Shown here: one piece after another, positions 20,570 through 33,759 of the stretch
Numbering within the stretch: position 1 is the stretch's first letter
Layout of the letters: each line of letters opens with the position of its first letter
NCBI GenBank assembly: GCA_003279935.1
Contig: QCGL01000005.1
Coordinates: 25,954 to 89,953 of the forward strand
Direction: 5' to 3'
Source of the DNA: Prochlorococcus sp. AG-388-A04
GTDB taxonomy: Bacteria; Cyanobacteriota; Cyanobacteriia; PCC-6307; Cyanobiaceae
Length of the DNA stretch: 64,000 nucleotides
Translations under genes and position numbers: made by a program
Notes under the pieces: generated by a model
Database searches by the model: none
Seen by the model: the letters and a program-made list of their open reading frames with translations, nothing else
What the model was told of the DNA's origin: nothing

Positions 20570-20719
20570 TCAGCGAGGAAGAGTTAGTAATATTTAGGAA
20601 TTTTTGCTCTCACGGCTAGAAAAACCTGATGTTAGTATTAATTTACGTTCATCCTAGTAATATCTGGACGCATGACATGGAAATAGGGAACGGGATTTCC
20701 ATTAACTGCAAAGGTCATG
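20570..20719 (+). promoter_or_regulatory. Candidate structured leader RNA overlapping the start codon of a 54-aa ORF (glutamine-riboswitch/downstream-peptide-like suspected)
   Basis: ACGTTCATCC...GGACG; nested stems CATGAC(20671-20676)/GTCATG(20714-20719) and ATGGAAAT(20677-20684)/ATTTCCAT(20695-20702). Confidence 0.4.
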
Positions 20720-29490: not shown

Positions 29491-31956
29491 ATGAAGGTCT
29501 CTCAGAATTGGTTGAAATCCCTTGTAGAAATAAATACTACAGCAGACGATTTATCTGAAAAACTATCAATAGGTGGTTTCGAAGTTGAGTCACTTGTTGA
29601 TTGTTCAGAAAATGTAAAAGGTGTAGTTCTTGGAAAGGTTTTGTCAGTAGTTAAGCATGAGAATTCAGATAAGTTATCTATATGCACTGTTGACATTGGA
29701 AGGTCTAATCCTTTACAGATAGTTTGTGGAGCGAAAAATGTAAAGCAAAATATATATGTTTATGTAGCTACTGTCGGTACACATTTAAGTGCGATAAATT
29801 TAACTATTAAAAAGAGTGAAATAAGAGGTGTTTCTAGTGAAGGAATGATTTGTTCGCTAGAAGAATTAGGAATAGAAGATACTAGTGAAGGAATCGCCAT
29901 TATTGATGAGGATTTAGCTTTAAAGCATAAATTAGGGACATCAGGAGCTGAAATACTTAATCTAAACGACTACATCTACGATTTAGCAATTACTGCAAAT
30001 AGACCTGATGGAATGTCTGTAGTTGGCATCGCAAGAGAAATATCTGCTCTTTTGGAAACTAAGTTAATCTTTCCAGATTTAAAAACTAAGTATAAAACAA
30101 ATGTTTATAAAAATTTTAATCTCTGCTCCGAAGCAATCACAAAAAATTGTCTTTATTCAATTAGCAATATTGAGTCTGTCAATGGGAAACAATTGTCTCC
30201 AGGATGGCTCAAAGATCGTTTAGATAAATCAGGAATTAAATCTATCAATCTTTTGGTTGACATAACTAACTACATTCTTTTAGAACAAGGACAACCATTA
30301 CATGCTTTTGATAAAGACAAATTATCTAATTTAATTGGTCGAAAGGTTTCATATAACGATTTCTCGGTTAGAAAGGCAAATAATAATGAAAATCTGTTGT
30401 GTTTGAATGGTGAGGATTATAAATTAAATGAAAATATAACTATCATCGCTTGTGACGACAAACCAGTCGCTATAGCGGGTGTAATTGGTGGTTTGGAAAC
30501 ATCTGTAAATGAGGATACCACATCAATATATCTTGAAGGAGCAGTTTTTAATCCCGTCACGATAAGAAAGTCATCAAAAGAAATTGGAATTAGAACAGAA
30601 TCTAGTAGTAGATATGAAAAAGGAATTTCTTATAAAAATACATTAGATTCAGTAACCCGTGCCATTAATATTTTAGAAGAATACTTTAATGTTCTAAATC
30701 CAATAATTAATATTTCCAAGGAATTAGATTCCACAAAAATACTAATACCGTTGAGAAGAGAAAGAATTAATAAAATACTTGGTCCAATTGTAATTAGAAA
30801 TGAGAATTACGATACTAATATTAAATTAGAAAAAAGGTATTTATCAGATAATGAAATTTCGGAGAAATTAAAGCTAATAGGTTGTACCTTAAACATAAAA
30901 GAATATGGATGGGATGTAGAAATTATTCCCAACAGGTCTCAAGATTTATTACGAGAAATTGATTTAATTGAGGAAATTGCAAGATTAATTGGTTATGACA
31001 TGTTTGATTTGAATTTACCAAATCCCATAAAACCAGGAAAGCTTTCTTCATCTCAAATAGCATTAAGGAAGTTAAAAACAGGATTAATAGTAAATGGATT
31101 TAACGAAGTATTGTCTTATTCTCTTGTTCCAGAAAGTAAGAATGATTTAATCAAGATTTCAAATCCATTACTTTTGGAAACAAGTTGCTTAAGAGATAAT
31201 ATTTGGCAAGAACATATTAAGATATGTAATCAAAATATTAAGTCAGGACATAATTATTGTTGGATATTTGAGGTTGGAAATATTTTTAGTAAAAAATCTG
31301 ATTTTTCACAAGATGAAATCCTAAATGGAGCTCTTTATGGAAAAAATAAATTTGAACAATGGTTAGATTCAAATAAGGATAATAATTTGACTTATTACGA
31401 GGCAAGAGGAAAGTTAAAGGAAGCATTATCAATATTAAATTTAAAAATAGAAGATAGATCAACAGATACGATAGATTTTCTTCATCCAGGCAGATCCTCT
31501 AAATTATTTACCGAAGGTAACGAAGTCGGATATTTTGGTGAGATTCATCCAAATTTAATATCTAACAAAATATCATTAAAAAAAATGTATTTATTTAGTT
31601 TAAAAATAAATAATATCTTAAAAGCCTGTACCAGACAAAATAAATGGATAACAGTTTATAAACAATTCCCAACAGTACCCAAAATGGAACGAGATATTTG
31701 TTTTATATTCAATAAAAAATACCTAGTAAGTGAGATAATTTCACAAATAAAAAAATCTGGTAAAAAACTATTAGAAGATGTTAATTTAATTGATGTTTAT
31801 GATGATGAAAGTTTTGGTAAAGAATTAATAAGCTACACATTTAGATTGTCTTATAGAGATTCTGAAAAAACATTATTAGATTCTGACATCGCATTTCTTC
31901 ACGATAGTATTGTTGAAATAATTGAAAAAAAATTCTCCACTAAATTAAGAGATTAA
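29491..31956 (+). CDS. pheT: Phenylalanyl-tRNA synthetase beta chain
   Basis: MKVSQNWLKSLVEI..., EQGQPLHAFD, NRSQDLLREIDLIEEIARLIGYD. Confidence 0.97.
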   Translation: MKVSQNWLKSLVEINTTADDLSEKLSIGGFEVESLVDCSENVKGVVLGKVLSVVKHENSDKLSICTVDIGRSNPLQIVCGAKNVKQNIYVYVATVGTHLSAINLTIKKSEIRGVSSEGMICSLEELGIEDTSEGIAIIDEDLALKHKLGTSGAEILNLNDYIYDLAITANRPDGMSVVGIAREISALLETKLIFPDLKTKYKTNVYKNFNLCSEAITKNCLYSISNIESVNGKQLSPGWLKDRLDKSGIKSINLLVDITNYILLEQGQPLHAFDKDKLSNLIGRKVSYNDFSVRKANNNENLLCLNGEDYKLNENITIIACDDKPVAIAGVIGGLETSVNEDTTSIYLEGAVFNPVTIRKSSKEIGIRTESSSRYEKGISYKNTLDSVTRAINILEEYFNVLNPIINISKELDSTKILIPLRRERINKILGPIVIRNENYDTNIKLEKRYLSDNEISEKLKLIGCTLNIKEYGWDVEIIPNRSQDLLREIDLIEEIARLIGYDMFDLNLPNPIKPGKLSSSQIALRKLKTGLIVNGFNEVLSYSLVPESKNDLIKISNPLLLETSCLRDNIWQEHIKICNQNIKSGHNYCWIFEVGNIFSKKSDFSQDEILNGALYGKNKFEQWLDSNKDNNLTYYEARGKLKEALSILNLKIEDRSTDTIDFLHPGRSSKLFTEGNEVGYFGEIHPNLISNKISLKKMYLFSLKINNILKACTRQNKWITVYKQFPTVPKMERDICFIFNKKYLVSEIISQIKKSGKKLLEDVNLIDVYDDESFGKELISYTFRLSYRDSEKTLLDSDIAFLHDSIVEIIEKKFSTKLRD

Positions 31957-32001
31957 TTGTATTACTGTTCTTAATCTGGTCTTAATAGTAGTCTATATTT
32001 A

Positions 32002-32017
32002 AGTCTTATATTAGACG
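32002..32017 (+). repeat. 16-nt near-palindrome, member of a local cluster
   Basis: AGTCTTATATTAGACg, 15/16 match to the local consensus AGTCTTATATTAGACT. Confidence 0.7.
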
Positions 32018-32061
32018 GTTGGTATTCGTATAAATCTAAATCATCATATATAATATTAGCT

Positions 32062-32310
32062 ATGATTAATATCCTCTCATTTTTAATATCTTCCATCCTT
32101 TGGGTGCAGGTTCCTCAATGGTCTGATGATTGGTCTAAATGTGCGGTAGATGTACCAGATTCATCATGCCATTGGTACATCACAGCACCAGACAATACTT
32201 TTGGAGATGGATTTGACTGGGCAAGTGCTCCATGGTTCGATGCAAATGGCTTGAGTGATGTTCCAAGCATTGAGAGAGAAACAGCCCTCCAAAAGCTTCA
32301 GGCTAAGTAG
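32062..32310 (+). CDS. Trp-rich small, probably exported protein (82 aa)
   Basis: MINILSFLISSILWVQVPQWSDDWSKCAVDVPDSSCHWYITAPDNTFGDGFDWASAPWFDANGLSDVPSIERETALQKLQAK. Confidence 0.65.
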   Translation: MINILSFLISSILWVQVPQWSDDWSKCAVDVPDSSCHWYITAPDNTFGDGFDWASAPWFDANGLSDVPSIERETALQKLQAK

Positions 32311-32427
32311 TACTGTCTTTAAGGCAGAGCTACATAATTAAAACTTTAGTTGTATTAGGGTTTTTAGTACATTAATTAAAAATTGGACACACAAAGGACA
32401 ATAAACTATAAGATTAGATATATTGAT

Positions 32428-32478
32428 AGTCTTATTTAAGATTAATTATTAGACTATTTATAAGTCTTGAATGAGACT
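32428..32478 (+). repeat. Two further 16-nt near-palindrome copies
   Basis: AGTCTTATTTAAGATT (32428-32443, 13/16) and AGTCTTGAATGAGACT (32463-32478, 13/16, half-sites at consensus spacing). Confidence 0.55.
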
Positions 32479-32551
32479 AGTAATTCCATCTCTTTTATTA
32501 AAATTTATTCAACTCTTCTACATAGGGAGAATTGATAATTGTATTTTATTA

Positions 32552-32567
32552 AGTCTTATATAAGAAT
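32552..32567 (+). repeat. 16-nt near-palindrome copy
   Basis: AGTCTTATATAAGAAT (13/16); contains perfect palindrome TCTTATATAAGA. Confidence 0.55.
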
Positions 32568-32687
32568 ATTTATACAGTGTCATTTTATTTAATAGGCATC
32601 ATTTAATAACCATTATTCACTTTTAGCTACTCTTAAAAGAAAGAATTAATTGGATAAGAAATTTTTAATTTAAAGTTATATCTTTAT

Positions 32688-32738
32688 AATCTTATATGAG
32701 ACTTTTTATTAGACTTAGGCTAAGTCTAATATAAGACT
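32688..32738. repeat. Dense palindrome block (three overlapping elements)
   Basis: AATCTTATATGAGACT (14/16), TATTAGACTTAG-g-CTAAGTCTAATA (12-bp perfect inverted repeat), AGTCTAATATAAGACT (16/16 on minus strand). Confidence 0.75.
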
Positions 32739-32745
32739 ATTAAAA

Positions 32746-33759
32746 CTATCTTCTATACATATTTTTAAGCAATTGATATGCATCATTTAATTTCCTCATC
32801 TCATCAGTAGATCCCCCAGAATCTGGATGGGTTTCTAAAGCTTTAATTTTATATGCTTCTCGTATTTTATTTAATGTATGTGCTGAACCTGCGGCGGTAG
32901 ATAAATTTAATAATTTTAGAGCTCCATGAACAGTCATTGTTGAATCAAGTGCTTCAAATGAATTTCCTTTATTTTTTCTTTTAAACCTACTTATAAATCT
33001 TCTTACTAATGTTGGGACCCTATTTATCAAATCAGATGTTGCAAATGGATCTTCTAATACACCTATCATTAAAATTACTAACTCTAAGGAGGGAGTTTGT
33101 TTTATCCAAAAAGGGCATAAATCCGACATTAATTTATTTGCGGCACTCCAGGTGAATGGCAACTGCTCAGTTCCATCAATATTTGGCCAAATATCTATAC
33201 AAAACCAATCAATAGATGCTTCTATTACTTGTTCATTTGGAATTGATCCATATAGGTTTTTCCAATGGCTTATAATTTCAATTCGACATTTAATTAAATC
33301 ATTTTCCTTAATAGTATTAATTTGAATATCATTAATTTTTTGTTTTGTCTTTTCAATATTTATACTTCTTCTCAGATTTTTAACTTTTTTTCCAACAAAA
33401 TTAGGTAGGTTGATGTTTAAGTTTGGTTTTTCATTAACTTCTTTATTATTTAATAGAAGTTTTTCTTCGGATTCTGTACTAGTACTCTCATCCTTATCAG
33501 ATTTAATAAGGACTAAAGCACTATTTTCATCAAAGTTAGAGTATTCATTAATATTCCCCTTTTCACTGTAATCAATTGTCTGTTGTTGACTTTTAGGTAA
33601 TAATTCTTCTTCTTGAAGAATTTCTGTAAGCAACTTTTCTATTACAGGTCCTCTTGCTCTAAAACCCCATTCTTTTCGTAATTGATCAAACCTAGAAACT
33701 AACTCTTCTGGCAAATCAATTGAAATTCTTTTTGTATTTGAATTCTCAGAATTATTCAA
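32746..33759 (-). CDS. Protein with N-terminal ribbon-helix-helix-like and C-terminal J-domain-like segments
   Basis: N-term KRISIDLPEELVSRFDQLRKEWGFRARGPVIEKLLTEIL; C-term AHTLNKIREAYKIKALETHPDSGGSTDEMRKLNDAYQLLKNMY (HPD). Confidence 0.8.
   Translation of the reverse strand: MNNSENSNTKRISIDLPEELVSRFDQLRKEWGFRARGPVIEKLLTEILQEEELLPKSQQQTIDYSEKGNINEYSNFDENSALVLIKSDKDESTSTESEEKLLLNNKEVNEKPNLNINLPNFVGKKVKNLRRSINIEKTKQKINDIQINTIKENDLIKCRIEIISHWKNLYGSIPNEQVIEASIDWFCIDIWPNIDGTEQLPFTWSAANKLMSDLCPFWIKQTPSLELVILMIGVLEDPFATSDLINRVPTLVRRFISRFKRKNKGNSFEALDSTMTVHGALKLLNLSTAAGSAHTLNKIREAYKIKALETHPDSGGSTDEMRKLNDAYQLLKNMYRR

Follow-up and report, generated by a model that had tools for sequence, protein, structure and literature searches.

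Between pheT and a gene for a ribbon-helix-helix protein of Prochlorococcus sp. AG-388-A04 lies a short stretch of DNA that holds a tight group of 16-nt near-palindromes, which raises the question of what larger structure these repeats belong to, what kind of molecule reads them, and why they are found at this place on the chromosome. We addressed this question in a 64,000-nt stretch of the genome (the window) and by comparison with other cyanobacterial genomes.

From palindromes to a multi-box element

The original prediction described six palindromes and several half-sites on both sides of a small gene. All six palindromes, as well as the half-sites at 31990, 32451 and 32711, were confirmed by direct reading of the window. 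The genes and the palindrome copies of the locus are:

29491..31956, plus strand: pheT, which bounds the locus on the left and is convergent with the RHH-J gene across the family
32002: palindrome copy, AGTCTTATATTAGACG
32062..32310, plus strand: gene for a small protein with a cyanophage homologue, located between element copies A and B
32428: palindrome copy, AGTCTTATTTAAGATT
32463: palindrome copy, AGTCTTGAATGAGACT
32552: palindrome copy, AGTCTTATATAAGAAT
32688: palindrome copy, AATCTTATATGAGACT
32723: palindrome copy, AGTCTAATATAAGACT (minus strand AGTCTTATATTAGACT)
32746..33759, minus strand: RHH-J gene, encoding an N-terminal ribbon-helix-helix and, at the C terminus, a J domain that keeps its HPD motif

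A genome-wide scan against a control had been proposed for the motif, and its outcome was divided, with clustering far above chance but motif density itself not raised. Single-motif enrichment was absent both in the window (28 matches with up to two mismatches vs 28.1 in shuffles) and genome-wide (36 sites with up to one mismatch vs 77 for the reversed control). Of these 36 genomic sites, 6 fall inside 737 bp, where 0.015 are expected (Poisson P ~1.5e-14), and a fuller consensus had six matches in the window, all six in the pheT/RHH-J locus. The palindrome signal is thus one of clustering, not of motif abundance.

Beyond what had been predicted, the palindrome copies turned out to be parts of 51-67 bp units, and the palindrome at 32002 has a degenerate partner at 31967. 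They are components of a larger, fixed, dyad-symmetric element of ~67 bp, with a core of five AGWCT boxes spaced 11/12/12/11 bp, and weaker outer boxes 8 bp away. In the congener alignment, paired palindromes start exactly 35 bp from each other, and an additional box lies at +23, which gives a 16-7-5-7-16 unit (AGTCT-N6-AGACT, N7, AGWCT, N7, AGTCT-N6-AGACT). The seven box centres lie at -6, 2, 13, 25, 37, 48 and 56 (8/11/12/12/11/8 bp), the dyad is at the middle box, and the outer boxes, as we read the consensus, are approximately GTCTC on the left and GAGAC or TATAC on the right. Since AGACT and AGTCT are identical except for the central base, each box comes close to a palindrome and the element shows little polarity. 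An alignment of 62 copies from many genera spans 79 columns with zero gaps. The window holds three full copies (A, B and C) and one half copy:

31953..32024, minus strand: element copy A, directly after the pheT stop (profile E=1.2e-11), with a degenerate palindrome at 31967-31982, middle box AGTCT at 31990-31994 and a palindrome at 32002-32017
32418..32490, plus strand: element copy B (profile E=2.3e-14), with palindromes at 32428-32443 and 32463-32478 and middle box AGACT at 32451-32455
32545..32576, plus strand: half copy (profile E=4.1e-5, model positions 41-72), consisting of the single palindrome at 32552-32567
32678..32752, plus strand: element copy C, at the 3' end of RHH-J (profile E=1e-14), with palindromes at 32688-32703 and 32723-32738 and middle box AGACT at 32711-32715

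The training set of the profile included copy C and left out copies A and B. The spot of copy A is conserved in congeners, and the half copy lies close to where other high-light strains have the right palindrome of copy B. The idea that these are sites for a dimeric protein gained support from the invariant boxes, the helical spacing, the gap-free alignment and the lack of compensatory changes; judging by these features, the element probably binds a protein.

Conservation of the element and its neighbours

Conservation in sister strains, by which the original prediction was to be judged, was complete, with sites present in 30/30 congeners and 79/79 named loci. Each of the 79 named Prochlorococcus loci in which both borders are present carries three (n=74) or four (n=5) elements between pheT and RHH-J, none was found beyond this interval in the same loci, and the end copies are centred 32-40 bp past the RHH-J end and 36-44 bp past the pheT end. 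In 20 further loci, of which 19 come from low-light Prochlorococcus and Synechococcus-like genera, an iterated profile took 53 matches, and 53/53 were within the RHH-J/pheT interval, which in some of these loci holds other genes too; at the final, looser cut-off (E up to 1), two weak matches were obtained outside the interval, in L150 and L151.

A whole-genome profile search detected the element in 111/151 near-complete Cyanobiaceae genomes and in 28/34 genera. Among the 150 matches listed, 139 come from genomes that have RHH-J (or, in genome G041, what remains of it) and all of these lie <4 kb from RHH-J, while the remaining 11 belong to a single genus, g5. Match clusters also occur in other cyanobacterial families, where a genome has them at one place or at two that are close together (e.g. 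G221, G305, G298, G214). Genome G014, with 40,000 of its bases read as N, has its four top-ranked 16-bp sites, and six of its top eight, in the pheT/RHH-J locus; elsewhere on the chromosome such sites are scarce and close to the expected number (only ~2-fold within 50 kb, with small numbers). Searches of mobile DNA returned nothing convincing in two cyanophage flanks, no full-consensus five-box pattern in viral contigs, and no credible match in plasmids. By the profile evidence, the element is kept across Cyanobiaceae and beyond.

RHH-J, whose ribbon-helix-helix is of the NikR/CopG type, is an unusual fusion of this fold with a J domain. It is near-universal in Cyanobiaceae (139/150 genomes) and was not detected in other cyanobacterial families, and its structure prediction was poor (pLDDT 42). 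Some low-light Prochlorococcus-like genomes (G061, G077, G099, G121, G177) additionally encode a small separate protein (frames of 64-80 aa) that is related to the ribbon-helix-helix part. The neighbouring ribbon-helix-helix protein had been put forward as the partner of the sites, and as a general partner it found no support. In G041, RHH-J is reduced to a pseudogene with an internal deletion and many stops (L135:3120-3575) and the three elements are intact, a case that is not decisive by itself because the decay of the pseudogene is moderate. In genus g5, RHH-J is absent from 7/7 genomes, even by profile search, and 6/7 of these RHH-J-less genomes have strong elements at another place. These g5 elements (L235-L240) form AT-rich islands in 60% GC DNA, beside mnmE (named from sequence) in 4/6 loci and elsewhere in the other two. 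Elements therefore do not depend on an intact RHH-J, as G041, g5 and other families show; the general reader is not RHH-J and must be more widely distributed, and RHH-J itself may be a lineage-specific partner.

The small gene at 32062-32310 is conserved within the genus, and we regard it as incidental to the element because elements persist in genera where no small-gene homologue was found in the interval. Its cyanophage homologue carries the annotation carboxylesterase/esterase (PHROG 14182, 1187) and shares ~80% DNA identity with it over 138 bp, and most complete congeners carry a second paralogue elsewhere. At another place in the window, positions 20643-20702, we noted a glutamine-II riboswitch (RF01704, 43 bits).

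Location at the replication terminus

In RHH-J-bearing Cyanobiaceae, the cluster sits at the replication terminus. The arc from RHH-J to dnaN has a median of 0.48 of the chromosome (maximum 0.5) in 57 single-contig genomes, and is at least 0.45 in 48 of them; some genome lengths were rounded to 0.1 Mb, and the 57 arcs are not independent of each other because gene order is inherited. To locate the terminus within individual chromosomes we used third-codon strand bias, a measure corrected for gene orientation; within +-8 kb the bias is too weak to resolve a switch. In the MED4-sized genome G014 (1,657,990 bp), the locus lies at 0.500 of the chromosome (828.9-829.6 kb) and the strand bias flips sign there, with the best origin at 0 and the best terminus at 814 kb (bootstrap 95% 810-864 kb).

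In the MIT9313-sized genome G104 (2,410,873 bp), the locus is off-centre at 0.33, with elements at 801.8-802.6 kb. The best strand-bias switch in this genome is at 800 kb, a fit at the antipode is several hundred log units worse, and at the geometric antipode (1,200 kb) the bias is already of the other arm's kind. A second solution, at 450 kb, falls short of that at 800 kb by only 2.3 units, because a block of ~450-690 kb looks inverted; the reversed sign of the strand bias across this block (G104:C1, L264-L267) suggests an inversion near the terminus. The pattern would also arise if an inversion had moved the terminus along with the elements, and therefore G104 shows co-location, not cause. 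MIT9313 has been listed independently as a chromosome with unequal arms (PMC2099444).

Candidate roles for a terminus element

Several known kinds of site might explain such a cluster. A terminal position, inverted half-sites around a 6-bp centre and a universal recombinase are what would be expected of dif or accessory sites in a chromosome-dimer resolution region; a single tyrosine recombinase orthologue, weakly similar to XerA, is encoded in 150/151 Cyanobiaceae genomes, G041 and g5 included, and dif prediction failed in 5/5 cyanobacteria tested (PMC3025954). We nevertheless consider this explanation unlikely. Instead of a single 28-31 bp site with two ~11-bp arms and a 6-8 bp core, each locus has 3-4 multi-box copies in both orientations, with 5-bp boxes and no unique asymmetric core visible in the conservation profile; moreover, the enclosed gene was never flipped or lost in 30 congeners, and the recombinase is a candidate reader by gene presence only. 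The recombinase gene (L076:15023-16186, minus strand, equal to G014:C1:495023-496186; ~390 aa) adjoins a cobO-like gene. A replication fork barrier, i.e., a cyanobacterial counterpart of Ter-Tus or of terC-RTP of B. subtilis, would likewise place several sites at the point of fork fusion near a gene for a DNA-binding protein (PMC10331603), and the strand-bias switch does stay at the element even where this is off-centre, in G104. Known fork traps, however, are polar and have sites in opposed, conserved orientation, whereas the element is nearly symmetric, its orientation varies among genera (all one way in L138, L140 and L147, mixed in high-light strains), and the neighbouring RHH-J gene is dispensable. 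We demoted the polar fork trap because of this variable orientation, and judge a fork barrier to be improbable.

Two further explanations look to local gene expression. The boxes might be operators of a transcription circuit in which RHH-J or another regulator controls RHH-J, the small gene or pheT, since a ribbon-helix-helix gene is adjacent in 139/150 genomes of the family, and box size and spacing suit ribbon-helix-helix dimers. The sites, however, lie past the stop codons of two convergent genes and not upstream of RHH-J; they also do not follow the RHH-J gene in their occurrence, outlasting its loss in G041 and g5 and occurring outside the family, and they are found in genera without the small gene, so that we give operators little credence. 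Still far less credible are RNA hairpins or bidirectional terminators in 3' UTRs. The end copies do lie directly past stop codons, and 2/6 copies tested fold well as RNA (z ~-4), but the remaining tested copies have no unusual folding, compensatory changes are not above those in shuffles, no terminator-like site (a stem followed by a U tract) was found, and an Rfam search gave no match at the locus; there is, in addition, one cluster per genome, with conserved primary sequence.

The reading we put forward is a terminus-specific protein-binding array with a role like that of matS, of XerD sites or of a centromere, and with a reader other than RHH-J, and we give it an even chance of being right. 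MatP, which acts on the Ter macrodomain of enterobacteria, contains a ribbon-helix-helix, and its matS sites are isolated 13-bp sequences scattered across hundreds of kb. The element resembles them as a short, terminus-specific, palindromic and non-polar site with predicted protein binding, and its sites are confined to the terminus region; it differs in that 67-bp seven-box units form one 0.5-3 kb cluster, instead of single palindromes dispersed over a large Ter domain, and in that RHH-J is dispensable whereas MatP is required. Plasmid centromeres of the ribbon-helix-helix type (ParR-parC) are clustered arrays of short boxes one helical turn apart, and the element shares both the clustering of short boxes and the helical-turn spacing, here at a chromosome terminus and with a dispensable linked ribbon-helix-helix gene. 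MatP unloads MukBEF (PMC8669397), and terminus XerD sites of B. subtilis unload SMC, according to the citation of Karaboja 2021 in PMC12322038. The likeness to XerD sites lies in a cluster of sites at ter, and in a binding protein, here a predicted one, that is conserved and encoded at another place in the genome; the boxes differ in sequence, spacing and symmetry. In its action the element would come closest to terminus markers such as matS or the XerD sites, or to a ribbon-helix-helix-type centromere, and in our comparisons it matches each of them in part.

Under the proposed array, each box would be occupied by a single small, symmetric dimer of a DNA-binding protein, and the dimers, lined up along successive turns of the helix, would join cooperatively into a large, non-polar nucleoprotein complex at ter. 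Such a complex could serve the last steps of the chromosome cycle, e.g., holding or segregation of the terminus, removal of SMC, or seating of the recombination or decatenation machinery, and its reader would be a protein that is conserved in many cyanobacteria and distinct from RHH-J. A broader version of this proposal, a cyanobacteria-wide terminus centromere with a fixed multi-box element, one cluster per chromosome and a conserved reader, which acts in the last replication and segregation step and is unrelated to matS, dif, XerD sites and Ter, is more tentative, and we think it somewhat doubtful.

We found no earlier report of the element, or of any cyanobacterial terminus element, in the open-access literature, and a recent review of fork traps does not mention cyanobacteria (PMC10331603). 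Among terminus-specific DNA elements, it has a fair chance of proving to be a separate kind once its reader is known, and it may be the missing end-of-replication signpost of cyanobacteria. If so, it would serve as bait for a new chromosome protein and as a terminus marker of fixed position when growth is estimated from metagenomes (as in PMC9589681), and it would give physical access to how replication ends and chromosomes segregate in the most abundant phototroph of the ocean.
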